From a virus: DNA of 64,000 nucleotides. Both the position numbers and the translations under genes were made by a program. Below the pieces are notes generated by a model. That model was not told the DNA's origin, made no database searches, and worked only from the letters and a program-made list of their open reading frames with translations. This document shows, piece by piece, positions 1,639-62,121 of this stretch. Numbering within the stretch: position 1 is the stretch's first letter; every line of letters starts with the position of its first letter. The DNA lies in IMG/VR virus record IMGVR_UViG_3300008266_009201, positions 34,441-98,440 of that record; one strand, given 5' to 3'.

Positions 1639-2323
1639 ATCGCGTAGTTCGTTGTACTACAACGCATATGAATATGCCATGACCTGGCAGCAGGACGAAA
1701 TTGGGTGTATTCGCAGTCTTGATCAAAAGAAAATGCAGTCACACATTCGCGTGAGAATGGAGTACGAAGCTAGTAGAAATTCTCATTACCAACGCTATGG
1801 CGAAAAATTTATAAGCAAATTTACCACACGCTGTTGTGACAATTTAGAAGGCATGCGAGCACTGTTGGCAGCAGAAACTCCCCCAAAGAAAATGGTGTTT
1901 TTCAACAATTATCTCACAGTGTACACAAACAATCTTGGCTTGCATGGTCGATTGATGGCATGCGATTGGATTGAGTCTGTAGATCTCAAACGAGCAGAAC
2001 TCAATTTGCCACCTGATACAATTTTATTAAAAAATCCACAGTATCAATACCGCACTTATTTCCGTGGGCGATCACTTGGCAAAACACAAAAGTCTCGACT
2101 GGCTGCATGGATAACCACCCAGGGCAATGACGTTGCAGCCAGCAAGAGTTTGCGAGAATTTTTAGATATTGAAATTAGGCCAACACGGGTGTATTGGTGG
2201 CGCAATGATGTTACTGAAAGCTATTACTACATCGAGCACAATAGCCTACAATATGAAACCATGCTGAGTATGGTATGCCCGGGCATGGTTAGGAAAACTC
2301 TGCCCATAGTGAAAAAACAATAA
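1628..2323 (+). CDS. Hypothetical phage protein, 231 aa
   Basis: I do not recognise this protein. It is basic and rich in Tyr, Arg and Trp (for example RVYWWRNDV near the C-terminus), with no signal peptide, membrane segment or clear motif. Its ATG lies 11 bases inside the end of the clpA-like gene, so the two are probably translationally coupled and cotranscribed. Its TAA stop (2321-2323) is the first half of a TAAATA late-promoter motif that serves the next gene. The long intact frame in a coding-dense region supports a real gene. Function unknown. Confidence 0.7.
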   Translation: MRSESRSSLYYNAYEYAMTWQQDEIGCIRSLDQKKMQSHIRVRMEYEASRNSHYQRYGEKFISKFTTRCCDNLEGMRALLAAETPPKKMVFFNNYLTVYTNNLGLHGRLMACDWIESVDLKRAELNLPPDTILLKNPQYQYRTYFRGRSLGKTQKSRLAAWITTQGNDVAASKSLREFLDIEIRPTRVYWWRNDVTESYYYIEHNSLQYETMLSMVCPGMVRKTLPIVKKQ

Positions 2324-2326
2324 ATA
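2321..2326 (+). promoter_or_regulatory. T4-like late promoter core, TAAATA
   Basis: TAAATA lies 7 nt before the ATG at 2334, with no Shine-Dalgarno between them. In T4 the late core TATAAATA spans about -13 to -6, so transcription would start within two bases of the start codon. The motif also contains the stop codon of the upstream gene. Confidence 0.6.
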
Positions 2327-2333
2327 ACACACT

Positions 2334-2498
2334 ATGGCAAAAATACATGAAGAAATAGTTGTGATCAAACTATCAAAATTGGTCAAAGACGATGCAACAG
2401 CAGAAGCAATTGCCACTGATGACATTGTGGCAGCCCTGCAATCAGTTGCAGAAGAACTAGCCGGCAGCGGTGTTGTTGTGGAAGCTGATCGCGCATAA
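2334..2498 (+). CDS. Small hypothetical phage protein, 54 aa
   Basis: A short acidic protein beginning MAKIHEEIVVIKLSKLVKD and ending VVVEADRA. It has an alternating beta/alpha look, and its start resembles small proteins of T4-like phages. Its TAA stop overlaps the ATG of the next gene (ATAATG, one base shared), which supports coupled translation. Start chosen because TAAATA sits 7 nt upstream and no other ATG fits. No function can be assigned. Confidence 0.6.
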   Translation: MAKIHEEIVVIKLSKLVKDDATAEAIATDDIVAALQSVAEELAGSGVVVEADRA

Positions 2499-2860
2499 TG
2501 ACCACTGAAATCATTCTTGGCACCACAGTTTACGGAGAACCTTCGGGCAACTACGACGGGTCAAGTCAAGACTGGGCATCAGACGCTGTGCCAGCAGCCA
2601 GTTATTATCGCGGCCGTGGCGGCTTGCAAACTGTGACTTTTAGTGTTGAAAATTTTGAAGGTACCATTTATCTTGACGCCACGCTGGATACACTACCAGA
2701 ATCAGCCACTTGGTTTAACACATTTATTTTTGATGATGGGTCTACTATACCAATAACTGATTACCATCCTGCAACAATAACTGGTAATTTTGTGTGGCTG
2801 CGTTGCAGAATTGAAAACTTTTCTGGTGGCACTATAAATTCTGTCACCGCCACTTACTAA
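2498..2860 (+). CDS. Hypothetical beta-rich protein, 120 aa
   Basis: The composition (Thr, Gly, aromatic and Asp rich, few Lys, alternating hydrophobics) suggests a beta-sandwich, as in phage structural or decoration proteins. It has no signal peptide or Cys-based site. It overlaps the preceding small gene by one base and is followed after 8 bases by a similar beta-rich gene, with GGAA as a possible ribosome site between them. A virion role is inferred from this late-promoter context only. Confidence 0.6.
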   Translation: MTTEIILGTTVYGEPSGNYDGSSQDWASDAVPAASYYRGRGGLQTVTFSVENFEGTIYLDATLDTLPESATWFNTFIFDDGSTIPITDYHPATITGNFVWLRCRIENFSGGTINSVTATY

Positions 2861-2868
2861 GGAAATCC

Positions 2869-3309
2869 ATGTCAGAAGTTGTTAAATTTCAGTGTACGTT
2901 AGGCACCACCTCGTCCGCTGCACCACTGAGTTTTGAAGCTTTACTAAATGGCCAAAGTGTTTTTAAGTTAGATCATGTGACTGATAACTGTCAGGTAACA
3001 TTTGACATTCCAGATACAGATGACACTGAACAAAAACTACAACTGGTGATGTCAGGCAAAACTACAGAACACACACAAGTTGATGATCAGGGCAATATCA
3101 CTGCTGATGCCATGTTGACCATTGATACTGTGTCAATTGACGGAGTTGATATCACTCAGTTGTTGAATGAAACAGCAGATTATGCACACGATTTCAATGG
3201 CACACAAGATCCCATAAAAGACAAGTTCTATGGAGCCATGGGCTGTAACGGCTCAATAACACTTGAATTTACCACACCATTTTATCTGTGGTTGCTGGAA
3301 CACATGTAA
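2869..3309 (+). CDS. Hypothetical beta-rich phage protein, 146 aa
   Basis: A Thr/Asp-rich, probably beta-sandwich protein with repeated short strand-like segments, ending in an aromatic tail (FYLWLLEHM). It forms a three-gene late unit with the two genes before it. The FYG-G-S-TLEF stretch near the C-terminus looks like a sheet edge, but I recognise no family. Structural or carbohydrate-binding roles are possible; neither is shown. Confidence 0.6.
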   Translation: MSEVVKFQCTLGTTSSAAPLSFEALLNGQSVFKLDHVTDNCQVTFDIPDTDDTEQKLQLVMSGKTTEHTQVDDQGNITADAMLTIDTVSIDGVDITQLLNETADYAHDFNGTQDPIKDKFYGAMGCNGSITLEFTTPFYLWLLEHM

Positions 3310-3313
3310 GCAC

Positions 3314-3319
3314 TAAATA
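3314..3319 (+). promoter_or_regulatory. T4-like late promoter core, TAAATA
   Basis: TAAATA followed by 6 nt (CAGTGT) and then ATG at 3326. There is no Shine-Dalgarno in this spacer, which predicts a leaderless transcript. Confidence 0.65.
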
Positions 3320-3325
3320 CAGTGT

Positions 3326-4068: not shown

Positions 4069-4074
4069 TAAATA
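4069..4074 (+). promoter_or_regulatory. Late promoter-like TAAATA with a normal leader
   Basis: TAAATA lies 24 nt before the ATG at 4099, and the leader contains a GGAG ribosome site. It thus contrasts with the leaderless-type promoters nearby. A TATAAT at 4060-4065 could be an overlapping sigma70 -10 box. Confidence 0.45.
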
Positions 4075-4962: not shown

Positions 4963-4968
4963 TAAATA
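4963..4968 (+). promoter_or_regulatory. T4-like late promoter core, TAAATA
   Basis: TAAATA followed by 8 nt (CAGTTCGT) and ATG at 4977. No ribosome site lies between, another leaderless-type arrangement. Confidence 0.6.
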
Positions 4969-7900: not shown

Positions 7901-9146
7901 GTGGAACGTTTCCAATCCTGGCAATAGTTATGCCAGTGTAGAAGTTGTTGCCACCTCTCGAGAAGAAGCCATTGAAAAAGCCTTGGGGGATGATGGCTAT
8001 CCGTCTTGGGCCAACACACGACAATCTATTGTGGCTGAACCTGTGCGTCCGTATAATTTGGATGCACAATCTACACAAGACGACGACACAGCTAGTGCCT
8101 TTACTGCACCGCCAGGTTCTCAAGGTGGTGGCCGCCCCAATGACCCCAACGGTCGCTATGCCATTGTGCTACGCTCGGATCCAGGCCTGTATGGCAGTTT
8201 TACTGGCCCAGCACCTGACTATCAGTTTAGATTTAACATGGGCAATCCAGCGGAACAGGCACAAGGCAGATATGTTCTCCAAGCCTGGGCTGCTAGAAAC
8301 AATGTGGTTGCTGCTGACTACATGGTGGTGGATACTGAACAATGGGATCGGCCTGCAGATGCAGCATCGGGTGGTATCATTGACATTGAACCAGATATAG
8401 AGGTGGTCTACCCTGGAAGCACAGCAGCCTTGGCACAACAGCGAGCCACGCCAGGCACATTCTCTGGTGCATGGAAGGTGTTGGTCAATGGTGAAGAAGT
8501 TCATAGATTTTCAGGCGTGGGCAACAATCAAGGCGATGCTAACCGTGTAGCGGCTCAATGGTTGCGAAACAATGGTCGGGGAGTGTCAGGCGAAGGCTTT
8601 GAAGTTGTGCCAATCATGACAGAAGGTGTAGCCGAAGGCAAGGATCGCTACGGAAACTTTGATCCTCCTGGTCCTGAAAGCCGACCCACAATGCCAGCGG
8701 GCACTGTGCGAGTGGATGTGTCAGACATGTATGACTGGTACAAGTTGGGCAAGAACATTGCTAACTTAGACAGAGATAACACTGACGATTTTGGCAAAGG
8801 ACCACCCAGTACTATTGTGAGTTTTGGCGACGAAGATCTTGAACATGAATACATCAAGCAGTTGGAAAAACTAGGGTTAACCACCACTGACATTGATCCT
8901 GTAGATCCCAATCAACCTGCTGGCATCAAGCGTCAAAAAACTGATCCCACATACAACGTAGGTGAAAACTTTGCTGACGGTCGGAATCCCCAAGACAAAG
9001 GCGATTCAAAGCGACACGGCGTGCCCACCAAAGCATCAGTAAGCACCCTGCGTAAAGTGGCCAAACAAGGCGGTCGCAAAGGACAATTGGCACACTGGAT
9101 GGCCAACATGAAGGCTGGACGGGCTCGAGCCAAACGCAATAAATAA
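4977..9146 (+). CDS. Giant fusion: nucleotidyltransferase, HExxH metalloprotease and amidoligase-like domains, 1389 aa
   Basis: Three enzyme-like modules are visible. Residues 1-240: Pol-beta-type nucleotidyltransferase with GS (65-66) and the SDIDL metal motif (D77, D79). Then a Gly-rich linker. Residues 300-430: Zn-metalloprotease-like domain with HELAH (368-372) and a downstream ENEANAVAG helix that may give the third ligand. Residues 515-950: amidoligase-like (ATP-dependent COOH-NH2 ligase) domain opening with GMEFEM and carrying STGLHINIS near 780 and FRSPGGDW near 880. Residues 950-1389 are linker-rich, include EGVAEG, and end in a very basic tail (MKAGRARAKRNK). A late promoter with an 8-nt spacer decides the start. 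The size, fusion and tail suggest a packaged virion protein, perhaps processed by the prohead protease. The targets of the three activities are unknown. Confidence 0.75.
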   Translation: MNINELDSFKLSDAVKFHNRLNPKIWGRDEQLLPEVREKLLAIADNFREFLGVGDLDVRDITISGSNAAYSYTPYSDIDLHLVVEFPADDEVYQELFNAKKYQYNDEHKLSIGGVPVELYVQNAAESPVSQGEYSIPRDEWIQVPRRKRARIDDTCVRAKVEDLDARIHSAIESGNAESMSRLWDKIKAMRQSGLDAHGEFGCENIVFKILRNKGCIKDLRTARTAAQDHELSLQERRKKKSRVRYGFGSYWSPGFGYGGESGEGGDGGGGESMREGHQGQPYSSEDGVAASTQMFLNEDDTESMVQQFIQDTAERLGIERMPEIVLHDNDGWSEQNRSFGMYQPELHVLHVNLRDRHVMDILRTVAHELAHCRQQELEQLDHTSGNTGSPVENEANAVAGIIMRDFADAHPELFDHEDIRESSGYIPTWAERNDPRFEMALSVDVHPGQTGTEANKMRLATDSQGHPQLLRADGKVKLAESLAQEFELFEEQDLFEINMGSKNLRREAAKTGAIAGMEFEMIVPGMESEDPEMEPDYDQDERCVSIDDAVRFFHDGDYNGRRDVERLRERMQDDFQEWLDEKLRDDWGGESQDYIRDWLRNNVNEDEWNPNELTGDERNEAFDEFAANVDADPSSTYYNEAFDEWREEFQENYDESDWLDATDLDRMSEVEQMYGMNWPYWTSMNSGEIDADQVADEFSQAVGREVRVNTRYHQSGDRPGPNNQFYVVEPDASLEGDNDGDEGLEFVSPPMPIDELLKDLNAVKAWAGRMGVYTNSSTGLHINISVPDYSLDRLDYVKLALLLGDEYVLKQFGRSSNTYTKSALGKVRDRVRSNPEDAQRLLDKMKGQMGELASKAIHSGSTDKYTSINTKSGHIEFRSPGGDWLDDNFDKIENTLLRFTVAMSAALNPEAYREEYQKKLYKLLTQDQKGSDTIRYFADYVAGKIPKAALRSFVKQAQLQRKTERNKTSGEKMWWNVSNPGNSYASVEVVATSREEAIEKALGDDGYPSWANTRQSIVAEPVRPYNLDAQSTQDDDTASAFTAPPGSQGGGRPNDPNGRYAIVLRSDPGLYGSFTGPAPDYQFRFNMGNPAEQAQGRYVLQAWAARNNVVAADYMVVDTEQWDRPADAASGGIIDIEPDIEVVYPGSTAALAQQRATPGTFSGAWKVLVNGEEVHRFSGVGNNQGDANRVAAQWLRNNGRGVSGEGFEVVPIMTEGVAEGKDRYGNFDPPGPESRPTMPAGTVRVDVSDMYDWYKLGKNIANLDRDNTDDFGKGPPSTIVSFGDEDLEHEYIKQLEKLGLTTTDIDPVDPNQPAGIKRQKTDPTYNVGENFADGRNPQDKGDSKRHGVPTKASVSTLRKVAKQGGRKGQLAHWMANMKAGRARAKRNK
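9140..9145 (+). promoter_or_regulatory. T4-like late promoter core, TAAATA
   Basis: TAAATA overlaps the end of the giant gene (stop 9144-9146) and is followed by 7 nt (ACCCATC) and ATG at 9153. No Shine-Dalgarno is present. Confidence 0.6.
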
Positions 9147-11709: not shown

Positions 11710-11715
11710 CAAATA
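11710..11715 (+). promoter_or_regulatory. Late promoter variant, CAAATA
   Basis: CAAATA lies 9 nt before ATG at 11725, without a Shine-Dalgarno. One mismatch to TAAATA, and the widest spacer of the set. Confidence 0.4.
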
Positions 11716-11724
11716 CATAACTGC

Positions 11725-16946: not shown

Positions 16947-16954
16947 TATTTATA
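16947..16954 (-). promoter_or_regulatory. Perfect T4 late promoter TATAAATA, minus strand
   Basis: TATAAATA on the minus strand, 4 nt (TTGC) before the ATG at 16942. It exactly matches the T4 late consensus, has no ribosome site behind it, and faces away from the plus-strand motif at 16969. Confidence 0.75.
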
Positions 16955-16968: not shown

Positions 16969-16974
16969 TAAATA
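16969..16974 (+). promoter_or_regulatory. T4-like late promoter core, TAAATA
   Basis: GATAAATA with TAAATA at 16969-16974, then 5 nt (TCTTT) and ATG at 16980. Together with 16947-16954 it forms a 37-bp divergent pair of leaderless-type promoters. Confidence 0.7.
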
Positions 16975-20267: not shown

Positions 20268-20528
20268 ATGAGCGGCAAAACATTTAACGGCGAGCAAAAA
20301 CTCAAACTCACTCAGATCATCAACGAAGGCATGCAAGTCATGCACGAAATTGAAACTCTCAACGGCGGACTTACTGACACCATCAAGGCTGTGGCTGAAG
20401 AACTGGAAATCAAGCCTGCTGTACTTAAAAAAGCAATCAAGCTGGCACACAAAGCTGAATTTGGCAAAGCCAAACAGGATCACGAAACCCTGGAAACTAT
20501 TTTAGAAACAGTTGGTAAAACTCTTTGA
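20268..20528 (+). CDS. DsbA-like dsDNA-binding regulator, 86 aa
   Basis: A small all-helical protein. Its pattern of a first helical pair (FNGEQKLKLTQIINEGMQVM), then TIKAVAEELEIKPAVLKKAI, resembles the T4-like DsbA family, which binds double-stranded DNA near late promoters. The ELEIKPAVLKKAIKLA segment reads as a helix-turn-helix. It has a strong promoter and an excellent AGGAGG site, so high expression is expected. The stop overlaps the TTG start of the next gene. A late-transcription role is inference from family resemblance. Confidence 0.6.
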   Translation: MSGKTFNGEQKLKLTQIINEGMQVMHEIETLNGGLTDTIKAVAEELEIKPAVLKKAIKLAHKAEFGKAKQDHETLETILETVGKTL

Positions 20529-21685: not shown

Positions 21686-24346
21686 ATGAGTTATATCGAC
21701 GCACTTTTTGATCGTGAACACGATCGCATACATGTAGTAGAACGCCGCGATGGCGAACGAGTCTACAAGGAATATCCTGCCAACTACATTTTCTATTATG
21801 ACGATCCTAGAGGCAAGTTTCAAAGCATCTACGGCACACCTGTAAATAGATTCTCATCGCGCAACAACAAAGAATTTCGCAAGGAAGTTCGCAGCCAGTC
21901 GGGCAAGCAGTTGTATGAATCAGACATCAATCCTATCTTTAGATGTTTGGAAGAGAACTACAAAGACCAAGATGCTCCAGAACTGCACACAGCATTTTTT
22001 GACATCGAAGTTGCGTTTGATGCAGAGCGTGGATTCTCGCCTGTGGCAGATCCCTTCAATCCTATCACTGCTATATCTGTATATTTAGATTGGCTGGATC
22101 AGATGATCACACTGGCGGTGCCGCCTAAACATCTAAGCTGGGATACTGCACAAGAGCTGGTGGCCGAGTTTGAAAATACCATCTTGTTTGAGCGTGAAGA
22201 AGACATGATCAAAATGTTCTTGGATGTGATTGAAGGTGCGGATGTACTTACAGGTTGGAACTCAGAAGGTTACGACATTCCTTACACAGTAAATCGTACC
22301 ACAAGAATACTCAGCAAGGATGACACACGACGCTTTTGTTTGTGGGGACAGTTTCCCAAGCAAAGAATGTTTGAACGCTTTGGCGCAGAGAATCAAACTT
22401 ACGACTTAGTCGGTCGTGTGCATATGGACTACATGCAGTTGTATCGCAAGTACACATACGAGGAACGCCACTCATATAGTTTGGATGCTATCGGCGAGTA
22501 CGAGCTGGGTGAACGCAAAACACAATTTGAAGGCACACTGGATCAGTTGTACAACCAGCACTTCAAAAAGTTTATTGAGTACAACCGCCAAGACACCATG
22601 ATCATTGCCAAGTTAGACAAGAAATTGCGTTTCTTGGACCTAGCCAATGAACTGGCACACGCCAATACTGTGTTGCTACAAACCACAATGGGTGCTGTGG
22701 CAGTGACTGAACAGGCCATTATCAATGAAGCACACGAGCGTGGAATGGTTGTGCCCAATCGTAAGCAACGCCTTACAGATGATGACACCCAGGCCGCAGG
22801 TGCTTATGTGGCATATCCTAAAAAGGGCCTGCACATGTGGATTGGGTCAGTGGACATCAACAGTCTATATCCATCTGCAATTCGTGCCATGAACATGGGT
22901 CCAGAAACTGTGGTGGGCCAATTGCGGCAAACCATGACTGATCAGTTGATCAAATCCAACATGGCCAAGGGACAAAGTTTTGCGGCTGCATGGGAAGGCT
23001 TGTTTGCCAGTTTAGAGTATACTGCTGTGATGGAACAGCAACGTGGTACAGAAATTACCATTGACTGGGAAGGTGGCGAAGAGTCAGTACACTCTGCTAT
23101 GGAAATCTGGCACATGATCTTTGACTCAAATCAACCTTGGATCCTTACTGCCAATGGTACCATTCTCACTTACGAGAAGAAAGGTATCATCCCTGGCCTG
23201 CTGGAACGCTGGTATCGTGAACGACAAGAACTGCAAGCCAAGAAGAAGCAGACCAAGGATCCCAAAGAGATTGCGTTCTGGGACAAACGTCAATTGGTCA
23301 AGAAGATTAACTTGAATAGCTTGTATGGTGCTATTTTGAATCCAGGCTGTAGATTCTTTGACAAGCGTATTGGGCAGTCAACCACACTGGCAGGTCGAAG
23401 TATTGCCAAGCACATGGATGCTCACATCAATGAGTGCATCACAGGCGAATATGATCACACAGGCAAGGCCATCATCTATGGTGATACAGACTCATGCTAT
23501 TTTTCTGCGTGGCCCATACTGGAAAAAGAAGTTGCAGAAGGACGGATGGAATGGTCAAAAGAAATCTGCATCCAACTGTACGACTCAATTGCTGATCAAG
23601 TGAATGAGAGCTTTCCAGCGTTTATGGAACAGGCGTTCCATTGTCCCCGAGACATGGGTGCGTTGATCAAAGCAGGTCGTGAACTGGTTGCTGACCGCAG
23701 TTTGTTCATTACCAAGAAGCGTTATGCTGTGAACATCATTGACTTGGAAGGCAAGCGACTGGATGTAGACGGCAAGATTGGCAAGACCAAGGCCATGGGC
23801 TTGGATCTCAAGCGTTCAGATACCCCCAAAGTAATTCAAGACTTCCTGTTAGAAATTCTAAATAAAGTACTGGCAGGTACACAACGAGATGAGATCATTG
23901 AACGCATTAGAGAATTCAAGTATGAGTTTAAAGAGCGTCCAGGCTGGGAAAAAGGATCGCCTAAGCGTGTGAACAACTTGACCAAATATGCGGCAGAGGA
24001 AGCACGCCTGGGCAAAGCAAACATGCCAGGACACGTTCGTGCCGCAATGAATTGGAATCAAATGCGTAGAATGAATTCAGACAACTACTCAATGCAGGTT
24101 GTGGATGGTATGAAAACCATTGTGTGCAAACTCAAATCAAATGCACTTGGATGGACATCAATTGGCTATCCTACAGATGAGCAAAGATTGCCTGCATGGT
24201 TTACTGAACTGCCGTTTGACGATGGGCTAATGGAAGCAACTGTTGTGGATCAAAAGGTCGACAACTTGCTGGGTGTGTTGGAATGGGACCTTGCGTCTGC
24301 TACCAACACAGAAAATACTTTTACATCACTATTTTCATTCGAATGA
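21686..24346 (+). CDS. 43: Family B DNA polymerase (T4 gp43 type), 886 aa
   Basis: The replicative polymerase. The 3'-5' exonuclease motif I is FFDIEVAF (about residue 105). Polymerase motif A is SVDINSLYPSAI (about 390), motif B KKINLNSLYGAIL (about 540), and motif C IIYGDTDSCYF (about 600) with the two catalytic Asp. The length matches T4 gp43 (898 aa). The C-terminus ends TFTSLFSFE, a hydrophobic tail like the clamp-binding peptide of gp43. The sliding clamp lies one gene downstream. The methyltransferase gene that follows starts within its stop codon (ATGA). Confidence 0.96.
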   Translation: MSYIDALFDREHDRIHVVERRDGERVYKEYPANYIFYYDDPRGKFQSIYGTPVNRFSSRNNKEFRKEVRSQSGKQLYESDINPIFRCLEENYKDQDAPELHTAFFDIEVAFDAERGFSPVADPFNPITAISVYLDWLDQMITLAVPPKHLSWDTAQELVAEFENTILFEREEDMIKMFLDVIEGADVLTGWNSEGYDIPYTVNRTTRILSKDDTRRFCLWGQFPKQRMFERFGAENQTYDLVGRVHMDYMQLYRKYTYEERHSYSLDAIGEYELGERKTQFEGTLDQLYNQHFKKFIEYNRQDTMIIAKLDKKLRFLDLANELAHANTVLLQTTMGAVAVTEQAIINEAHERGMVVPNRKQRLTDDDTQAAGAYVAYPKKGLHMWIGSVDINSLYPSAIRAMNMGPETVVGQLRQTMTDQLIKSNMAKGQSFAAAWEGLFASLEYTAVMEQQRGTEITIDWEGGEESVHSAMEIWHMIFDSNQPWILTANGTILTYEKKGIIPGLLERWYRERQELQAKKKQTKDPKEIAFWDKRQLVKKINLNSLYGAILNPGCRFFDKRIGQSTTLAGRSIAKHMDAHINECITGEYDHTGKAIIYGDTDSCYFSAWPILEKEVAEGRMEWSKEICIQLYDSIADQVNESFPAFMEQAFHCPRDMGALIKAGRELVADRSLFITKKRYAVNIIDLEGKRLDVDGKIGKTKAMGLDLKRSDTPKVIQDFLLEILNKVLAGTQRDEIIERIREFKYEFKERPGWEKGSPKRVNNLTKYAAEEARLGKANMPGHVRAAMNWNQMRRMNSDNYSMQVVDGMKTIVCKLKSNALGWTSIGYPTDEQRLPAWFTELPFDDGLMEATVVDQKVDNLLGVLEWDLASATNTENTFTSLFSFE

Positions 24347-25287
24347 AACTGAGCGAACTTGTTGATTACTTGAACCACATTGATGAATTTGAGTTAGGTC
24401 AAATTCATCAAGAAGCCCGTCACAGACTTGATGCTGTGATACACAAAATTGCCAACCACAATGTGCAATTTAACAAATTTACACAAGGCATCATTGCCAA
24501 TGGTAACAAAATTAATGAAAGTTTCCAGCAATTCAATCATACCATTGACGCTATACGCAGTCACGTGATTGACGCTATGACTGCACAGCATCCAGAATAC
24601 TTGCGTGAAAGTTTGAGATTGTTCCAGCATGAAATGTGTTATGACACTACCGAACACATTCTTAATCGTAGGCTACGTTGCGATCCCGAAAGTGCTGAAC
24701 TACTACAAGGTAGAATTTTACGCTACACAGATTGGCGTGTGCCTGGATTGATTTTCAGACCAGCACTGGAACAACACGTGGAGCAATTGGTACCATTGGA
24801 CCCGTTGTACATGATTGACAACAATCTTGAATTGCTAGAACCTGCCTGTCAAGGATTTACTGAAGAATATCGACGTAGACTGAGATTATACACAGCTGAA
24901 GAGATTCTAGGCAAACCAATACTTGCACTGTTGCCAGATGCTCAGTTTGGATATTGCTTTGCTTACAATTACTTCAATTACAAACCATTGGAATTGATAT
25001 GTCAGTACTTGGATGAGCTGTGGAAAAAACTTCGGCCTGGCGGAGTGGTGTTTTTTACCTACAACGACTGTGATCGTGCTCACGGAGTTGCATTGGCCGA
25101 GCGCAGTTACATGTGCTACACTCCAGGATCGTTGATTCAAGAACATGCTGAAACATTGGGATTTGAGCTCATGCATCGTCACAATGGCCCTGCTGACGTT
25201 GCATGGTTTGAGTTCCAAAAACCTGGAGAAATAGATTCGCTTAGAGGCGGACAAACATTAGCCAGAATAGTTGCAAATTCTAAATAA
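24343..25287 (+). CDS. SAM-dependent methyltransferase-like protein, 314 aa
   Basis: The N-terminal 110 residues are helical (possible coiled coil). The C-terminal half looks like a class I methyltransferase fold: LGKPILALLPDAQFGYCFAY, then LWKKLRPGGVVFFTYNDCD, which matches the post-motif III 'LRPGG' strand, and HAETLGFELMHRH. A clear GxGxG motif I is not visible, so activity is uncertain. The start at 24343 (ATGA overlap with the polymerase stop) is preferred over an upstream in-frame ATG. It lies between polymerase and clamp, a position where I recall similar proteins in marine T4-like phages. Confidence 0.6.
   Translation: MKLSELVDYLNHIDEFELGQIHQEARHRLDAVIHKIANHNVQFNKFTQGIIANGNKINESFQQFNHTIDAIRSHVIDAMTAQHPEYLRESLRLFQHEMCYDTTEHILNRRLRCDPESAELLQGRILRYTDWRVPGLIFRPALEQHVEQLVPLDPLYMIDNNLELLEPACQGFTEEYRRRLRLYTAEEILGKPILALLPDAQFGYCFAYNYFNYKPLELICQYLDELWKKLRPGGVVFFTYNDCDRAHGVALAERSYMCYTPGSLIQEHAETLGFELMHRHNGPADVAWFEFQKPGEIDSLRGGQTLARIVANSK
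25281..25286 (+). promoter_or_regulatory. Late promoter-like TAAATA before the sliding clamp
   Basis: TAAATA overlaps the upstream stop codon. A 34-nt leader with a TAGGAG ribosome site separates it from ATG 25321, so this transcript would carry a normal leader. Confidence 0.45.
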
Positions 25288-25320: not shown

Positions 25321-26043
25321 ATGAGAGATTATCTATTAGACTTAGTACAACACACACACGATCTTGGCTGCATTGATTTGATCAAGATTGTAGGCGATGA
25401 CAAAGCCACACAAATTGTAGGCCTTGCTGAAGACATGAGCGTGGTTGTGGAAGGTGAATTCAAAAATCCACATCCAGACTTTGTGGGCACATTTGGCATG
25501 CCAAACTTGGCCAAGATCAAAATTCTGTTGAACTTGCAGGAGTACAAAGAAAACGCCAAACTCAGCTTGAGTCGCCGAGCAGGCGGCGAGCCAGATGGCA
25601 TCAAGTTTGAAAATGCCGCAGGCGATTTTCAAAACAACTATCGTTTCATGGCCGAAGCCATTGTGACTGAAAAACTCAAGACGCCCAAGTTCAAAGGTGT
25701 AAACTGGCACATTGAATTTGAACCCACTGTGGCTGCCATCCAACGCCTGCGTATGCAAGCACAGGCCAATGCTGAAGAACCACATTTCCAGGCCAAGACT
25801 GAAAACGGAGACTTGAAGTTTTTCTTTGGTGATCATAGCACACATGCTGGTAACTTTGTGTTCCACCCAGGTGTAAATGGTCAATTGAAACGTGCTTGGT
25901 CGTGGCCTGCTCAACAAGTCATGAGTATCCTGTCATTGACTGGGGACAAGACCGTTCGTATCAGTGATGATGGTGCTGCCAAGATCACGGTGGATAGTGG
26001 CATTGCTGTTTACAATTATATCTTACCAGCACAAAGCAAGTGA
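25321..26043 (+). CDS. 45: Sliding clamp, DNA polymerase processivity factor (gp45 type), 240 aa
   Basis: The sequence follows the T4 gp45 pattern: NLAKIKILLNLQEYKE, a central basic stretch, then KFFFGDHSTHAGNFVFH and a C-terminal VRISDDGAAKITVDSGIAVYNYILPA. Length is close to gp45 (228 aa). The trimeric ring tethers the polymerase to DNA, and in T4 it also activates late transcription together with gp33 and gp55, which fits the many late promoters here. A TAGGAG site precedes the start. Confidence 0.9.
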   Translation: MRDYLLDLVQHTHDLGCIDLIKIVGDDKATQIVGLAEDMSVVVEGEFKNPHPDFVGTFGMPNLAKIKILLNLQEYKENAKLSLSRRAGGEPDGIKFENAAGDFQNNYRFMAEAIVTEKLKTPKFKGVNWHIEFEPTVAAIQRLRMQAQANAEEPHFQAKTENGDLKFFFGDHSTHAGNFVFHPGVNGQLKRAWSWPAQQVMSILSLTGDKTVRISDDGAAKITVDSGIAVYNYILPAQSK

Positions 26044-36735: not shown

Positions 36736-36777
36736 TAACACATAGACATCCACGTCTTATAACTCGGAGAATAACAA

Positions 36778-39343: not shown

Positions 39344-39348
39344 TTAAC

Positions 39349-40005
39349 ATGCAAAAAAAAATTATATACAAAAAAAAGTATATTTCATTGAGCGTTGTCA
39401 ATGATATAAAATCATACTATGAAAAAATAAATGATTCATTGTTAGACTCAGCTGGACCTTATCCTAATCCAAAATCTAAACTGGGATGGGCAAGTTGTTG
39501 GGATCGTCAGTTGCACTATGAACTGCCCCGAAGTCCTATTCATAAAATAGTCAACCAGTTAAAAACAGACTTTGGTGAGTTTATCATCCACGATTCCAGT
39601 ATCCGATATTTGTCAGCACCAATTTTGCCACATAGCGACATTAGAGGAGTCGATTGGCTCAAAGAAAATAAAAGCAAAGGTTTCAAAGAAGGTCTTACTT
39701 TTTTAATTCCTTTGTGGTGGAAAGACGGTCATACTCCTGGTACTGCATTTTATAGTTGTCCAGCCAATTTGAATGAACCATTATATACAGATATGCCAAA
39801 CATCTTGCCAGCGTATTCTGACCAATACACTGAAGAAGCAAGAAATTTCAGTGTAAGAAAAATCATAAAATGGGAGTCACCTGGTGATCTAATTGCGTTT
39901 GAAAGTTTCCAATGGCACGGATCGTGCCAATGGGGCGATGTCACATATGATCGAGAAACTTGGTCTAAAGAGTTTCTTTCAATAGAAACCTGGCGTGAAC
40001 CTTAA
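39349..40005 (+). CDS. 2-oxoglutarate/Fe(II) oxygenase-like protein, 218 aa
   Basis: LSAPILPHSDIRGVDWLKE holds the HxD motif, LTFLIPLWW the core strand, and ESPGDLIAFESFQWHGSCQ the distal His (PGD...WHG) of the double-stranded beta-helix. The N-terminus is Lys-rich and AT-rich (MQKKIIYKKKYISL), unlike its neighbours. Probably a hydroxylase; the substrate is unknown. It ends the run before the QueD promoter. Confidence 0.7.
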   Translation: MQKKIIYKKKYISLSVVNDIKSYYEKINDSLLDSAGPYPNPKSKLGWASCWDRQLHYELPRSPIHKIVNQLKTDFGEFIIHDSSIRYLSAPILPHSDIRGVDWLKENKSKGFKEGLTFLIPLWWKDGHTPGTAFYSCPANLNEPLYTDMPNILPAYSDQYTEEARNFSVRKIIKWESPGDLIAFESFQWHGSCQWGDVTYDRETWSKEFLSIETWREP

Positions 40006-40063
40006 CCTCTGTTGATATTTAATATAAGTATTTCTCTAAGCGGCCTGTCCGGCATCATCCCGC

Positions 40064-40092
40064 TATACAAACTCTGCTGCCTATGCTATAAT
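40064..40092 (+). promoter_or_regulatory. Extended -10 promoter before queD (TGCTATAAT)
   Basis: TGCTATAAT with TATAAT at 40087-40092 and a weak -35 (TATACA, 40064-40069), followed by AGGAGG and ATG 40108. It matches the GCTATAATAC box of the 55-kb promoters. Confidence 0.6.
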
Positions 40093-40107
40093 ACATAGGA
40101 GGACAAT

Positions 40108-41130: not shown

Positions 41131-41153
41131 TTACATCAAATTGGTAGGAATTT

Positions 41154-42023
41154 ATGGCACAAGAATTTGATATATCTTTACTGTTGGCCACTCGAGGTCG
41201 TACAGAAGCGTTGGGCAAAAGTGTTCGCAGTTTGTTTGAACTGGCTGACAATCCTCATCGTTTGCAAATCATGTTTGGATTTGACAAAGACGATGACAAA
41301 GGCAAAACGTACTTCCAAACTGAATTGCAGCCTTGGTTAGACTCACACGGTTATCACTATACCGCCATGTTGTTTGACCCATTGGGATATATCAGATTGC
41401 ATATCTACAACAACAAGATGGCTGAGAAAGCCCTGGCTCCTTGGTTTGTTATTTGGAATGATGATGCCATCATGCAAACCCAGGGGTGGGACAGTGAGAT
41501 TTTGAAATACAATGGCAAGTTTAGATTGCTGGCATTCCATACTCACAACGACCACCCCTACTCAATTTTTCCAATAGTTCCACGCAAATGGTATGAACTG
41601 TTGGGATACATCAGTCCCCATCCCACACAAGATGGGTGGTTGAGTCAACAGGCATACATGCTGGACATTTGGGAAAGAATTCCAGTATGGGTAGAACATG
41701 ATCGCCACGACTTGACTGGCAACAACGGCGATGAAACATTTAAAAATCGTGCCATGCTAGAAGGTCGCCCCGATGATCCGTTGGACTTTCACAGCGTTCA
41801 GCAAATGGACCTGCGACACCGAGACTGTGCAAAATTGGCCACATACATGCGCAGTGAATTAGGTATGGATCTTTCATTCTTTACCAACGTGTTCAACGGC
41901 AGTCAAGATCCCTGGGAAAAACTAGCACAGAATGATGTAAACAGTCAAATGGTTCAATTTGCCAACCCGCATACACATTTTGCAAAAAAAGATACTGATC
42001 AAAAACAAGTAAATAATGCATGA
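41154..42023 (+). CDS. GT-A (family 2-like) glycosyltransferase, 289 aa
   Basis: ISLLLATRGRTEALGKSVRSL is the opening of family 2 transferases. The DxD-like acidic motif is NDDAIM in FVIWNDDAIMQTQGW, and PHPTQDGWLSQ follows. Residues beyond 240 are mostly polar. Its start lies 24 bases after the queD fusion stop, with a TAGGAAT site. Its stop overlaps the B12-type radical SAM gene by ATGA. Donor and acceptor are unknown. Confidence 0.65.
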   Translation: MAQEFDISLLLATRGRTEALGKSVRSLFELADNPHRLQIMFGFDKDDDKGKTYFQTELQPWLDSHGYHYTAMLFDPLGYIRLHIYNNKMAEKALAPWFVIWNDDAIMQTQGWDSEILKYNGKFRLLAFHTHNDHPYSIFPIVPRKWYELLGYISPHPTQDGWLSQQAYMLDIWERIPVWVEHDRHDLTGNNGDETFKNRAMLEGRPDDPLDFHSVQQMDLRHRDCAKLATYMRSELGMDLSFFTNVFNGSQDPWEKLAQNDVNSQMVQFANPHTHFAKKDTDQKQVNNA

Positions 42024-44002: not shown

Positions 44003-44004
44003 CA

Positions 44005-44715
44005 ATGCGCCGACTGTTTACGTTTGGTTGTAGTTTTACAAACTATCGCTGGAGCACCTGGGCAGATTGTCTTGCTCCAGAATTTGATCACTTTGAAAAT
44101 TGGGGCCAGGCAGGAGGAGGAAATCAATATATTTTCAATTCAGTCATGGAGGCTGATCAAAGGCATTGTTTTGGTGACGGAGATACTGTTGTTGTATGCT
44201 GGACCAGTTTAGATCGAGAGGATCGATATGTTGACGGTCGATGGCACACACCCGGAAATGCACACTTCGCAACCAATGTGTTTAACAAAGAATACCTTAA
44301 AACACACATGGATGAAAGAGGATTCCTAATTAGAGATCTGGCATGCATCAAAGCAGTTAAAACTCTACTGGAATCTCGACACAATCTAAAATGGGAATTT
44401 TTGAGTATGGTAGAATTAATGGCCATGCCATTTCCGTCCGACAATGTTAGCAAACACAGAGATGTCATGCGATTGTACGAAAATGTGGTTTTAAGTATCA
44501 AACCAGGGTATGACAAAACTGTATTTAAAAACACTGGATATCCTAATAGAAACGGTGACCCACATCCCAGCCCCGAAGAACATTTGGCCTATTTAGATGC
44601 AGTATTACCGGGTTGGGTGACAAAACAATCTACTCGTGTTAAAATGCATGATGAAAGTATCAATCTAAATAAGAATCCCCGCAAGTCGGGAATGTCAAAG
44701 GTAACAAGGTTATAA
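44005..44715 (+). CDS. SGNH-hydrolase-like protein, 236 aa
   Basis: LFTFGCSFTNYRWSTW matches the block I variant (GCSFT), WGQAGGGNQYIF is block II, and DPHPSPEEHLAYLDAVL gives the DxH-type block V. Its C-terminal 25 residues are basic (NLNKNPRKSGMSKVTRL). It lies two bases after the radical SAM gene and three before queE, in the same transcript. Possibly glycan O-acyl chemistry; not assignable further. Confidence 0.6.
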   Translation: MRRLFTFGCSFTNYRWSTWADCLAPEFDHFENWGQAGGGNQYIFNSVMEADQRHCFGDGDTVVVCWTSLDREDRYVDGRWHTPGNAHFATNVFNKEYLKTHMDERGFLIRDLACIKAVKTLLESRHNLKWEFLSMVELMAMPFPSDNVSKHRDVMRLYENVVLSIKPGYDKTVFKNTGYPNRNGDPHPSPEEHLAYLDAVLPGWVTKQSTRVKMHDESINLNKNPRKSGMSKVTRL

Positions 44716-44718
44716 ACA

Positions 44719-45564
44719 ATGAAATTAAAAGTAAGTGAACTATTTTATTCTGCTCAGGGCGAAGGACGCTATATTGGAGTTCCTTCTATCTTCTTACGAA
44801 CCTTCGGTTGCAACTTTACGTGTTCGGGATTTGGATGCCAACCCGGTGATAAGAGCACTGAGGCAGATGACGTCGCAAAGAGCGTTCATCTCTACAAGAC
44901 TTTTGAAGAGCTCCCGTTGGTTAATACAGGATGCGATTCGTATGCAAGTTGGCATCCTGACTTTAAACATCTAAGTCCCACATACACAGCACAAGAGTTA
45001 GTTGACAAAATGGCTGCGCTGTTGCCCAATGGCCACTGGCAACAACCAAACGGCAATTCAGTGCATCTTGTGATCACAGGTGGCGAGCCATTGCTAGGTT
45101 GGCAACGTGCATATCCTGAACTGTTGAATCTGTTGCACGAACGTGGACTGCGACACATTACATTTGAAACCAATGGTACTCAAGAACTCACAAGAGAATT
45201 CAAACAGTATCTGTCTGAATGGTTTGGCGAGATCACATTCTCAGTAAGTCCTAAACTTAGTGTCAGTGGTGAAAAGTATGAAGATGCTATCAAACCTGAC
45301 ATTATTTGGGATTACGAAACTCACGGTGTTACCTATTTGAAGTTTGTTGTTGGTCACATTGATGATTTCAAAGAGCTTGATCTAGTAGTTGACGACTATC
45401 GAACCCGTGGATTTAGCGGACCAGTTTTTGTGATGCCTGTTGGCGGTGTTGTGAGTGTGTATGATGGCAATAGAATTCACGTTGCCGACGAAGCACTCAA
45501 ACGAGGTTATTGGTACAGCCCACGATTGCATGTGGACCTCTGGGGTAATGGATGGGGCAAATAA
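44719..45564 (+). CDS. queE: QueE, 7-carboxy-7-deazaguanine synthase, 281 aa
   Basis: LFYSAQGEGRYIGVPSIFLR is the QueE start. The cluster segment GCNFTCSGFGC has Cys at 31, 35 and 40, an atypical spacing (usual QueE is CX3CX2C), so the third ligand may differ. VHLVITGGEPLLGWQ is the SAM-binding GGEP motif, and FETNGTQEL follows. It converts 6-carboxytetrahydropterin (QueD product) to CDG. QueC, needed for preQ0, is not seen. Same-strand neighbours are an SGNH-like gene and a small DUF2061-like gene. Confidence 0.9.
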   Translation: MKLKVSELFYSAQGEGRYIGVPSIFLRTFGCNFTCSGFGCQPGDKSTEADDVAKSVHLYKTFEELPLVNTGCDSYASWHPDFKHLSPTYTAQELVDKMAALLPNGHWQQPNGNSVHLVITGGEPLLGWQRAYPELLNLLHERGLRHITFETNGTQELTREFKQYLSEWFGEITFSVSPKLSVSGEKYEDAIKPDIIWDYETHGVTYLKFVVGHIDDFKELDLVVDDYRTRGFSGPVFVMPVGGVVSVYDGNRIHVADEALKRGYWYSPRLHVDLWGNGWGK

Positions 45565-45565
45565 C

Positions 45566-45748
45566 ATGTCAGAAACTCATACAAGAACATGGATCCGAAC
45601 TCTAACTTATCGAATTGCTGCATTGCTGATTACTGCATTGTGGACCGGACTGGGTGATGCAGTTGCAATCCATATTGTGTTAGCATTCTTGCAATACAGT
45701 ATGGAACGTATTTGGTTAAAAATTAAATGGGGTAGGATTGATGTTTGA
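45566..45748 (+). CDS. DUF2061-like small membrane protein, 60 aa
   Basis: RTWIRTLTYRIAALLITALWT then ALAFLQYSMERIWLKI-like second segment: two hydrophobic stretches with the TYR and ERIW motifs typical of DUF2061 predicted membrane proteins. The start at 45566 overlaps the queE stop region (TAACATG). It probably sits in the inner membrane; role unknown. It overlaps the next gene by 8 bp. Confidence 0.65.
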   Translation: MSETHTRTWIRTLTYRIAALLITALWTGLGDAVAIHIVLAFLQYSMERIWLKIKWGRIDV

Positions 45749-46139
45749 TTGGTTTAAAAAATCTCAAAAGAAACCACCACCTGTGGTAGAAAAAGTCACT
45801 AAGCCTAGAGTTGCCGAACCACCAGCTAAAACTGAAAAACAACTTGCTACTGAAAAGGGAGAACCTTACGTGGCTGTGCTCAGTATGGATGTGGATCCTG
45901 ACAATCTGCATCAAGGTGCATTTGAGTTGGATTGGAATGAAATCTTTGTGGCTCGACTGGTAAAGGCTGGCTATATGATGAAACCTACAGACACTGATGG
46001 GGACATTGTTGACCGTTGGTTTCAAAATGTATGCCGCCATGTTGTGATGGAAACATGGGAACAAGAACAAGCCATCAAGAACTCCGGCATGTATGTTCAA
46101 AAGCGAGATCTTGGCGATGGCAGGAGCGAGGTATCATGA
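45741..46139 (+). CDS. Hypothetical protein, 132 aa
   Basis: A short basic start (MFDWFKKSQKKPPP), a Pro/Lys/Glu linker, then a domain with YVAVLSMDVDPDNLHQG and MYVQKRDLGDGRSEVS. The stop overlaps the next start by ATGA. No family identified; it looks like a soluble domain tethered by a flexible tail. Confidence 0.55.
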   Translation: MFDWFKKSQKKPPPVVEKVTKPRVAEPPAKTEKQLATEKGEPYVAVLSMDVDPDNLHQGAFELDWNEIFVARLVKAGYMMKPTDTDGDIVDRWFQNVCRHVVMETWEQEQAIKNSGMYVQKRDLGDGRSEVS

Positions 46140-46612
46140 TATTCAATCACATCAAACAACTCAAAGCAGAAGGCAAAAAAATTGGCATCACTTTCTCAAC
46201 CTTTGACATGCTCCACGCAGGCCACATTGCCATGCTTTCTGAAGCAAAAAATCACTGTGACTACCTCATCTGTGGGCTCCAAACGGACCCAACTATCGAT
46301 AGGCCTGAGACTAAGAATCGTCCGATACAAAGTATTGTGGAGAGACAGATACAGCTGGCTGCATGCCGTTACGTTGATGAAGTTGTTGTGTACCAAACCG
46401 AACAAGATCTACGTGACCTTCTACTAATTCTGCCATTAGATGTTCGAGTACTGGGAGTAGAATACGAACACAAAGACTTTACCGGTCGCGACGAATGCTA
46501 TGACCGCGGGATTGAACTAGTATTCAACGGCCGAGATCACTCATTCTCATCCAGTAGCCTGCGCAAGCGTGTGGTTGCCGCAGAGACCGAAAAAGTACTG
46601 CTACAAAAATGA
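46136..46612 (+). CDS. Cytidylyltransferase (TagD/HldE-C type), 158 aa
   Basis: KIGITFSTFDMLHAGHIAML holds the HxGH motif, and DYLICGLQTDPTIDRP is the next conserved block. RPIQSIVERQIQLAACRYVDEV matches the RTEWAR-like region, and FSSSSLRKRVV is the second signature (SSSxxR). Closest in pattern to glycerol-3-phosphate cytidylyltransferase or the nucleotidyltransferase of HldE. It would activate a sugar or polyol phosphate for transfer. Overlaps on both sides by ATGA. Confidence 0.85.
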   Translation: MIFNHIKQLKAEGKKIGITFSTFDMLHAGHIAMLSEAKNHCDYLICGLQTDPTIDRPETKNRPIQSIVERQIQLAACRYVDEVVVYQTEQDLRDLLLILPLDVRVLGVEYEHKDFTGRDECYDRGIELVFNGRDHSFSSSSLRKRVVAAETEKVLLQK

Positions 46613-49991: not shown

Positions 49992-49997
49992 TAAATA
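49992..49997 (+). promoter_or_regulatory. Late promoter-like GATAAATA
   Basis: TAAATA at 49992-49997, followed by a short leader with GGGAGA before ATG 50013. Confidence 0.5.
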
Positions 49998-51613: not shown

Positions 51614-51619
51614 TATTTA
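51614..51619 (-). promoter_or_regulatory. T4-like late promoter core, TAAATA, minus strand
   Basis: TAAATA on the minus strand, 4 nt (GGTC) before ATG at 51609. It lies within 12 bp of the plus-strand element at 51621, forming a second divergent pair. Confidence 0.65.
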
Positions 51620-51620: not shown

Positions 51621-51626
51621 TAAGTA
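51621..51626 (+). promoter_or_regulatory. Late promoter variant, TAAGTA
   Basis: TAAGTA followed by 5 nt (GATCT) and ATG at 51632. The same variant occurs at 54876-54883 (minus) and 59919, each with a 5-nt spacer. Confidence 0.55.
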
Positions 51627-54875: not shown

Positions 54876-54883
54876 TACTTATA
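54876..54883 (-). promoter_or_regulatory. Late promoter variant TATAAGTA, minus strand
   Basis: TATAAGTA on the minus strand, then 5 nt (ACAGC) and ATG at 54870; no Shine-Dalgarno. One base differs from TATAAATA. Confidence 0.6.
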
Positions 54884-59766: not shown

Positions 59767-59921
59767 ATACTGAACTTGAACGCCTGGTGCGGGCCGCTGG
59801 CGCACCCGAAGAAGCGATGGACCAACTTTGGTTTGCTATCTTCTGTCAGCAATTTGCTGACCTGCTGATTACCGAAATGGAAATGGATCAAGAGGCTGAC
59901 CTACTGCAAGTAGATGCATAA
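59763..59921 (+). CDS. Small acidic helical protein, 52 aa
   Basis: MNTELERLVRAAGAPEEAMD and FAIFCQQFADLLITEMEM, an amphipathic helical hairpin. Start overlaps the previous stop; its stop TAA begins the TAAGTA promoter of the desaturase gene. Confidence 0.5.
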   Translation: MNTELERLVRAAGAPEEAMDQLWFAIFCQQFADLLITEMEMDQEADLLQVDA

Positions 59922-59924
59922 GTA
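59919..59924 (+). promoter_or_regulatory. Late promoter variant, TAAGTA
   Basis: TAAGTA followed by 5 nt (TCTGC) and ATG at 59930; no ribosome site. It overlaps the upstream stop codon. Confidence 0.5.
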
Positions 59925-59929
59925 TCTGC

Positions 59930-60719: not shown

Positions 60720-60748
60720 AATTCTATACAAAATAGAAAGGGTATGCT

Positions 60749-61144: not shown

Positions 61145-61152
61145 GTAGCACA

Positions 61153-61227
61153 GGGCCAATAGCTTAATGGTAAAGCAACCGACTCATAATCGGTCGAGTC
61201 TTGGTTCAATTCCAAGTTGGCCCACCA
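61153..61227 (+). tRNA. tRNA with CAT anticodon (Met, or Ile2 after lysidine)
   Basis: The acceptor pairs GGGCCAA with TTGGCCC, followed by A and an encoded CCA. The anticodon stem-loop is CCGA-CTCATAA-TCGG, and the T-arm is TTGG-TTCAATT-CCAA. CAT can be Met or Ile2; the C/G-flanked anticodon stem resembles Ile2, but identity cannot be settled here. Confidence 0.9.
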
Positions 61228-61232
61228 AACAT

Positions 61233-61307
61233 CTGGCGTTCGTTCAACGGATAGGACATGATTCTTCTAAAGTCATTATAGAGGTTCGATTCCTCTACGC
61301 CGGACCA
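61233..61307 (+). tRNA. tRNA-Arg(TCT)
   Basis: CTGGCGT pairs with ACGCCGG, with discriminator A and CCA. The anticodon arm is TGATT-CTTCTAA-AGTCA, and the T-arm is AGAGG-TTCGATT-CCTCT. It reads AGA, a codon used more by this phage than by many high-GC betaproteobacteria (inference). Confidence 0.88.
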
Positions 61308-61325
61308 TGTATTAAATAACGCAAA

Positions 61326-61411
61326 GCCAGAGTGGTGGAATGGTATACACAGCAGACTTAAAATCTGCCGCTTGCAAGGGCATACGGGTTCGAGTCCCGT
61401 CTCTGGTACCA
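61326..61411 (+). tRNA. tRNA-Leu(TAA)
   Basis: A type II tRNA: GCCAGAG pairs with CTCTGGT, then A and CCA. The anticodon loop is CTTAAAA in the stem GCAGA/TCTGC. A long variable arm (CGCTTGCAAGGGCATA) confirms the Leu class. Its anticodon reads TTA. Confidence 0.92.
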
Positions 61412-61417
61412 AACATT

Positions 61418-61951
61418 ATGAACAAAAGTCCTACTCGCGGAACCTTTCACAGTCAATGCAGAATTGAAGATGTCATTGCGGAAGGAGGAGATCCTGCCAC
61501 TGACGAAGATGTTCAACGAGCTTTAGATCTTGAACGCATGATCAACGAACATCAGGCTCAACGCGAAGCCGACGAACGGTGGCGAGAAAACAATCTTGAA
61601 TATGATTTGCGTAGCACCAAGTGGGTTTGCGACAAAGCCAAGGCCAGCGATACCTACGCTCAAAACATCTACGCAGCCTTGTGCAATCAAGACTGGCAAC
61701 GCAACGAAGTATGGCCTTTGCTAAAGGGAGAGACCTACAGTTGTTCGTGGCGCTATGCCGGGGGTATTGTTGCCGACATGCGTGAACAAGGTGACTATAT
61801 TGATTGGTACTGTTCGGGCATAGGCGATGGACTGGGCAATGGTGATGCTGACGGTGTTAAAAGATATGTACCCGAAGGACATGTCACAGAAGAAATCCAG
61901 GAAGACTTTTTTAAGTTGGGCTGGATCCCAGTAGATAGCGGGGATGAATAA
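61418..61951 (+). CDS. Hypothetical acidic protein, 177 aa
   Basis: MNKSPTRGTFHSQCRIEDVI then a helical region with RERWRENNLEY-like pattern and a Tyr/Trp/Cys-rich domain (LCNQDWQRNEVWPLLKGETY, WRYAGGIVADMREQGDYIDW). The ATG at 61418 directly follows the tRNA-Leu CCA; longer frames start inside the tRNA and are rejected. Its TAA stop starts the TAAATA of the next gene. Function unknown. Confidence 0.6.
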   Translation: MNKSPTRGTFHSQCRIEDVIAEGGDPATDEDVQRALDLERMINEHQAQREADERWRENNLEYDLRSTKWVCDKAKASDTYAQNIYAALCNQDWQRNEVWPLLKGETYSCSWRYAGGIVADMREQGDYIDWYCSGIGDGLGNGDADGVKRYVPEGHVTEEIQEDFFKLGWIPVDSGDE

Positions 61952-61954
61952 ATA
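61949..61954 (+). promoter_or_regulatory. T4-like late promoter core, TAAATA
   Basis: TAAATA, 5 nt (GGTAT) and GTG at 61960; overlaps the upstream stop codon. No Shine-Dalgarno. Confidence 0.6.
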
Positions 61955-61959
61955 GGTAT

Positions 61960-62121
61960 GTGCTCAATCCCATAAAAAAACTACAAGAAAATCTAGCCCG
62001 AGACTTGGTCAGTCTGGAGGACACAGACTTGGTGTCGGAACAACAACTAGACAAAATTACTGATGCATACGCACAAGTGTATGACATCATCTCCAAAGCA
62101 GTTGACAAGCCCAAAGAATAA
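61960..62121 (+). CDS. Small helical protein with GTG start, 53 aa
   Basis: It reads M(GTG)LNPIKKLQENLARDLVS, then EDTDLVSEQQLDKITDAYAQ and KAVDKPKE. An amphipathic helical protein. The GTG start is supported by the 5-nt spacing to TAAATA; the nearby ATG is out of frame. Its stop is again part of a TAAATA, in front of the tmRNA acceptor piece. Confidence 0.5.
   Translation: MLNPIKKLQENLARDLVSLEDTDLVSEQQLDKITDAYAQVYDIISKAVDKPKE

Follow-up and report, generated by a model that had tools for sequence, protein, structure and literature searches.

The late promoters of phage T4 carry the octamer TATAAATA and are associated with the phage proteins gp55, gp33 and gp45. Leaderless messages, which start at the AUG codon, are known singly from phages, that of lambda cI being one. 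A paper on phage AR9 mentions incidentally that transcripts of phages 'are often leaderless' (PMC5312081), and among bacteria 375 leaderless mRNAs are reported for Caulobacter crescentus (PMC4117421) and 171 for Sinorhizobium meliloti (PMC3616915). Here the core hexamer of T4-type late promoters, TAAATA, was analysed in a 64,000-nucleotide stretch of viral DNA, bases 34,441-98,440 of the 98,440-base IMG/VR record IMGVR_UViG_3300008266_009201 (the window). An earlier note on this DNA had proposed that such promoters are placed so close to start codons that the late mRNAs would be leaderless. This proposal is supported, as the sequence consequences that were tested mostly fit; the 5' ends of the mRNAs are themselves a prediction. 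T4-type late promoters very probably occur here in two placements, the closer of which would give leaderless late mRNAs.

The locus resembles T4 in its core hexamer, the lack of a -35 element, a gp55 homologue, a sliding clamp of predicted PCNA fold and structural genes downstream. It differs in placement: in T4 itself TAAATA lies mostly at -30 to -28 (11 genes) and in 1 of 237 genes at -9 to -4, against about 30 genes here (distances give the position of the last A of the motif, with the A of ATG as 0). The outer TA of the T4 octamer is also weak in the genome analysed below, where gp33 was not found. The bacterial leaderless mRNAs, as described for Caulobacter and Sinorhizobium, are alike in having a promoter at the start codon, no Shine-Dalgarno (SD) sequence and an AUG start; their promoters, however, are those of the host and their ends were mapped with RNA sequencing, whereas here a phage late promoter is predicted from sequence. 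The single leaderless phage messages are alike in starting at AUG, but the present case concerns about 30 genes of a single genome, linked to one type of promoter at a tightly limited spacing.

In the Methylophilales phage Melnitz, 15 late promoters were found with TATAAAT (PMC9004378), and in phage CBB ATAAATA was found at 35 places (PMC5259590). The available portions of these two papers do not mention leaderless messages, except that the Melnitz paper cites a gene-finder article with the word in its title. In the present analysis the close placement was weak in Melnitz (2/170 genes), and CBB was covered by raw pattern counts only. Among the matches listed from the open-access literature, titles and abstract openings held no account of T4-type late promoters giving rise to leaderless mRNAs. 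Late transcription in T4 and the translation of leaderless messages have each been studied well; gp55-type promoters placed for leaderless messages appear to be a new combination, no paper linking the two having been found.

Placement of the core hexamer before start codons

Whole-genome statistics were drawn from a near-identical IMG/VR contig of 364,404 bases with 381 called genes (G001), in which the window lies in reverse orientation. G001 is probably complete, because a 127-base direct repeat is present at both ends. Among annotated phages, the T4-type DNA polymerase of the window is matched best by those of two jumbo phages, Sinorhizobium phage Phosso (51%) and Agrobacterium phage Atu_ph07 (47%). 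Genes for class statistics were called by codon usage, without giving credit to the motif or an SD, and starts less than 45 nucleotides (nt) from a contig end were dropped. Hexamer profiles were scored with TAAATA, and class membership in G001 with TAARTA.

The earlier note had named an equal frequency of TAAATA at random positions as an outcome that would speak against its proposal. The overall count was indeed near chance, with 34 copies in the whole window against 29.5 expected (standard deviation 5.6), and the full octamer TATAAATA occurred twice against 1.6 expected; it was the placement before starts that stood out. At -9 to -4, TAAATA was found in 7 of the 71 genes of the window, while the average for the other 14 arrangements of these letters was 0.43, with a maximum of 3. 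In G001 the same interval held the hexamer in 28/381 genes against 0.51 expected from its genome frequency, and the genes per position from -9 to -4 numbered 1, 6, 5, 8, 7 and 1, with the mode at -6. The other 14 permutations averaged 2.6 in G001, the highest being ATAAAT with 11, which overlaps the motif, and among the top eight hexamers at these positions TAAATA alone was not an SD sequence. The 14,049 ATGs of G001 outside called starts gave a low TAAATA profile (0-8 per position). When TAAATAN{4,7}ATG and its reversed pattern were simply counted, the numbers were 24 vs 12 in HTVC008M, 16 vs 20 in T4 and 9 vs 44 in CBB; this measure was rejected and start-anchored profiles were adopted, because raw pattern counts are noisy in AT-rich genomes.

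The spacing in G001 was bimodal. The last A of TAAATA fell at -9 to -4 in 28 genes, at -27 to -16 in 28 and at -15 to -10 in one, and with TAARTA the two classes comprised 32 genes (leaderless class) and 34 genes (leadered class). SD sequences were present in 1/32 of the former and 27/34 of the latter (Fisher 5e-11), compared with 136/315 remaining genes; in two other viruses described below, G011 and G013, they preceded 3/38 and 0/30 leaderless-class genes. The existence of two classes, as the earlier note had it, and the lack of SD at close-motif starts are thus both borne out by a nearly empty gap in the spacing and by the contrast in SD frequency between the classes. The two leadered examples named in that note, the clamp gene at 25321 and gene 50013, each carry an SD with the motif.

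In T4 late promoters the first TA of the octamer is placed at -13/-12 (PMC2988020). From this we infer that the last A of the octamer would lie at -6, with RNA starting 6 nt after it. With T4 geometry, transcription of the -9 to -4 class would therefore start no more than about 3 nt from the A of AUG. In the leadered class, 25/27 SDs begin at or past the predicted RNA start. A core in the gap between the classes would give a transcript with a leader too short to hold an SD, and of the internal evidence for the geometry this gap is regarded as the strongest. There was no -35 signal in G001, where information averaged 0.05 over the -35 zone and 0.07 over the flank, and the outer TA of the octamer carried little information. 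The full T4 octamer is not a conserved unit across G001, yet it is conserved at 16942(-).

The sites could be real late promoters whose genes are nevertheless translated mostly from longer messages that read through from upstream, with the short 5' end playing an incidental part. Read-through is likely, because 15/32 leaderless-class genes in G001 closely follow a co-directional gene (ending at most 20 nt upstream). However, 7/32 have a divergent upstream neighbour, and the class has lost the SD (1/32 vs 136/315 in the rest), so translation from read-through messages should suffer. As the main route of translation, read-through is considered improbable.

Late-transcription genes, conservation and recurrence

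Homologues of gp55 and gp33, which the earlier note had suggested seeking, were searched for, and gp55 was found in G001 but gp33 was not. The gp55 homologue (G001:280975-281871) matched phrog_12791 (E 1.5e-75) and phrog_234 (E 5.5e-24), T4 gp55 by phmmer (E 1.5e-10) and gp55 in the PDB (E 1e-6). No match of T4 gp45 by sequence was found to the clamp or anywhere in the jumbo clade, and the clamp fold was therefore modelled; the model indicates that a clamp of PCNA fold is encoded, and the protein is homologous to a Phosso protein annotated as sliding clamp. In a gene-content scan of 10 genes per class, inside or outside the window, leaderless-class products included the portal and further virion proteins, and leadered-class products the tail sheath, a baseplate wedge protein, a head-tail adaptor and gp55 itself. 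The major capsid gene belonged to neither class.

Conservation was assessed in 70 relatives less than 97% identical to G001; relatives at or above 97% and six loci contained in larger records were left out. Motif and spacing (-10 to -4) were kept in 60/71 relative sequences over nine sites, these rows not being independent (16 distinct upstream sequences in 25 rows at the 16980 site). Both were conserved at six sites: 2334, 3326, 4977, 16942(-), 16980 and 51609(-). The motif had been taken to favour 16942 over 16999 as a start, and 19/20 relatives do carry it before the 16942 ATG. Over 46 orthologue pairs, ATG-anchored identity was 0.63 in the motif, 0.38 upstream and 0.37 in the spacer.

Class was also compared across 152 orthologue pairs between G001 and two relatives, G004 and G006, with 74.5% and 75.7% nucleotide identity to G001 around the polymerase. 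Ten pairs were leaderless-leaderless, 8 leadered-leadered and 123 none-none; the others were leaderless-leadered (2), leadered-leaderless (1), leaderless-none (3), none-leaderless (3), none-leadered (1) and leadered-none (1). Some starts were re-anchored on proteins for comparisons with relatives, and this accounted for two apparent class changes: both leaderless-leadered pairs were trimmed starts, with the motif at -7 and -6 after re-anchoring.

In G004 a 169-residue frame (142768-143274) starts at the promoter and start codon used by the portal gene in G001, and the G004 portal has its start 502 bases downstream, preceded by an SD. NUMOD3 is a motif found in homing endonucleases, and the frame has a weak match to it, under the Pfam cut-off. 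It looks as if the portal promoter and start codon had been captured by an inserted gene.

TAAATA at -9 to -4 recurred in other T4-like viruses. The counts were 11/141 in G004, 6/82 in G006, 3/50 in G007, 4/57 in G008, 4/50 in G009 and 5/44 in G010, and 14/174 in Pelagibacter phage HTVC008M, 9 of them at -6. Mosig (4/173) and P-SSM2 (4/249) also carried it, and it was near zero in S-PM2 (1/148), phiM12 (0/304) and phiM9 (0/228), as in T4. Atu_ph07 (1/222) and Phosso (1/198) were profiled over their first 200 kilobases (kb) each. In G011, a marine jumbo virus with a 61% identical polymerase (300 of 322.6 kb profiled), 34/320 genes had the motif, 26 of them at -6, and in G013, a distant T4-like virus (polymerase 23%, GC content 30%), 24/98 had it. 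G011 and G013 were chosen by a search for motif plus ATG, so that their rates show that such viruses exist and not how frequent they are. A fair comparison for finding viruses by motif is an off-spacing control: in IMG/VR, TATAAATAGTA-N-T-ATG opened a frame of at least 50 codons (or one running off the contig end) in 106/120 among the matches listed, and with the ATG 5 nt further on (-11) such a frame was opened in 34/120 among the matches listed. These figures are proportions among the matches listed and not totals.

Two further observations were made on the comparison genomes. SD was present in only 4/62 of the remaining genes of G013, perhaps reflecting an SD-poor host. In Atu_ph07 CGAAAC was enriched at -27 to -16 (27/222 genes) and in phiM9 AAACAA (18/228); these are perhaps early-promoter or leader elements.

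The hexamer might instead be a translation signal, an AT-rich element replacing the SD on longer mRNAs, for example via ribosomal protein S1. It does occupy the usual place of the SD, and SD is rare in the leaderless class. The leadered class, however, has the same hexamer, placed 10-20 nt farther from the start, alongside an SD; the intergenic block between 16942 and 16980 holds two copies facing apart; the spacing peaks at -6 in G011 and HTVC008M; and the phage encodes a gp55 homologue. Such a signal is considered very unlikely. That the motif is a by-product of gene packing, its TAA being the stop codon of the upstream gene and TAAATA before starts a matter of chance, is extremely improbable, as it overlaps such a stop in 7/32 G001 genes but not in 25/32, as TAAATA accounts for 28 TAANNN hexamers at -9 to -4 and the next non-SD one, TAAGTA of the same motif class, for 4, and as control genomes with packed genes lack the motif.

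Start codons in the leaderless class fit late promoters placed for leaderless messages, and the base before the AUG gave mixed results. ATG was the start in 32/32 leaderless-class genes in G001, 38/38 in G011, 15/15 in HTVC008M and 27/30 in G013; since 333/349 G001 starts outside the class are also ATG, this test is weak. A pyrimidine at -1 was strongly preferred in G001 (30/32) and G011 (33/38). At the 16980 site, 9/16 distinct relatives had A at -1.

Several results weigh against this interpretation. gp33 (phrog_254) was undetected in G001, G004, G011, G013 and Atu_ph07; HTVC008M gave a match (E 2.2e-21) and Phosso a weak one (0.026), and the role of gp33 homologues has been termed less obvious (PMC2988020). 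The full octamer TATAAATA was rare in G001, with 9 copies vs 21 of the reversed string. Three of the 30 leaderless-class starts in G013 were GTG. The pyrimidine preference was mixed, at 12/15 in HTVC008M (p 0.055) and 22/30 in G013, which is like other genes there, and A stood at -1 in 4/12 leaderless-class genes of G004 and 2/7 of G006. No significant drop in 5' structure over the first 40 coding nt was found in four genomes (p 0.053, 0.25, 0.68 and 0.92). At start 11725, finally, the CAAATA with its last A at -10 was absent in 6/6 relatives.

Sites in the window and neighbouring genes

All 12 motifs that the earlier note had listed 4-9 nt before starts are present at those distances. One of them, at 11725, was misassigned, as the relatives share ATAYATAA directly before the start and not CAAATA; another, at 61960, is doubtful as a leaderless gene, having a GTG start just ahead of the tmRNA gene at 62109. 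The list had overlooked 42020, which is to be added; two of its four relatives have one common upstream sequence and a GTG start. The products of the ten leaderless sites scanned in the window are mostly without a named family.

Table 1. Putative promoter cores and late-transcription or replication genes in the window (aa, amino acids)
Feature	Positions	Strand	Last A of motif, relatives or match
Late-promoter core TAAATA, predicted leaderless start 2334	2321..2326	+	-8; -8 in 5/5 relatives
Late-promoter core, predicted leaderless start 3326	3314..3319	+	-7; -7 or -6 in 5/5 relatives
Late-promoter core, leadered class, gene 4099	4069..4074	+	-25 with SD; leadered also in two relatives
Late-promoter core, start 4977 (1389 aa)	4963..4968	+	-9; -9 in 4/5 relatives, -11 in the fifth
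Late-promoter core, start 9153	9140..9145	+	-8; without motif in the sole relative (partial match)
TATAAATA, predicted leaderless start 16942(-)	16947..16954	-	-5; TAAATA at -5 or -6 in 19/20 relatives
Late-promoter core, predicted leaderless start 16980	16969..16974	+	-6; -7 to -5 in 26/26 relatives
DsbA-like late-transcription accessory protein	20268..20528	+	phrog_639 E 7.6e-10, a family that T4 DsbA matches
T4-type DNA polymerase	21686..24346	+	phrog_262 E 3.9e-193
TAAATA upstream of clamp gene 25321	25281..25286	+	with leader and SD
Sliding clamp	25321..26043	+	model confidence (pLDDT) 73; PCNA structures, best Foldseek E 6.2e-11
Late-promoter core, predicted leaderless start 42020 (660 aa)	42010..42015	+	TAAATA at -5; -5 in 4/4 relatives
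Late-promoter core, leadered class, gene 50013	49992..49997	+	TAAATA; SD upstream of 50013
Late-promoter core, predicted leaderless start 51609(-)	51614..51619	-	-5; motif at -6 in 1/1 relative
TAAGTA core, start 51632	51621..51626	+	-6; no relative matched
TAAGTA core, start 54870(-)	54876..54881	-	-6; motif in 0/2 relatives (weak partial matches)
TAAGTA core, start 59930	59919..59924	+	-6; no relative matched
TAAATA before GTG 61960 (53 aa)	61949..61954	+	-6; no relative matched

Gene 11725 and its six relatives have ATAYATAA a few nt before the ATG (11713-11724) and no TAAATA; this may be a different kind of promoter in an equivalent position. The predicted leaderless starts 51609(-) and 51632 diverge from each other at a distance of 23 nt and their promoter cores overlap, so that two transcription complexes could hardly bind there simultaneously.

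A permuted tmRNA gene of alphaproteobacterial type (62109-62627) lies behind three tRNA genes and encodes the tag ANDEKFLMAA; it scored 115 bits with Rfam tmRNA_permuted and 57 bits with alpha_tmRNA, and blastn against phages gave no match. It hints at an alphaproteobacterial host or gene source. A search for the host with the polymerase among genome contigs found no relative. Genes at 33518-46612 resemble a nucleotide-sugar epimerase, GTP cyclohydrolase, QueD, QueE, a glycosyltransferase and a heptose kinase/adenylyltransferase, and are likely to serve sugar metabolism and 7-deazaguanine synthesis.

Proposed mechanism and its implications

In the mechanism proposed, the TAAATA core, with no -35 element, would be read by host RNA polymerase carrying the phage gp55-like sigma factor. 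In one placement the gene would be preceded by a leader about 10-21 nt long, which in most cases holds an SD. In the other it stands 3-8 nt before the start codon, and transcripts would begin at most about 3 nt from the A of AUG. The resulting message would be translated as a leaderless mRNA with a 5'-terminal AUG, probably by 70S or initiator-tRNA-first initiation. We infer from sequence the promoter role of the sites, the RNA start, the translation route and the tolerance of the host for such messages.

Tentatively, gp55-dependent promoters may have shifted onto the start codon in several T4-like lineages, perhaps in independent events, creating a leaderless late regulon with a translational switch in promoter spacing. 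If so, late-gene translation would be independent of the anti-Shine-Dalgarno sequence and could be favoured where 70S initiation dominates late in infection, and whether a phage has the switch would depend on how its host habitually translates. HTVC008M, a marine phage and one carrier of the trait, has a cultured host, Pelagibacter ubique HTCC1062. Confirmation would mean that phage late genes, including that of the portal protein, are made from messages without a leader, and start-site annotation in such phages would improve. Such phages would then be natural systems in which one polymerase makes leaderless and leadered messages in one cell, providing a direct test of bacterial leaderless translation.

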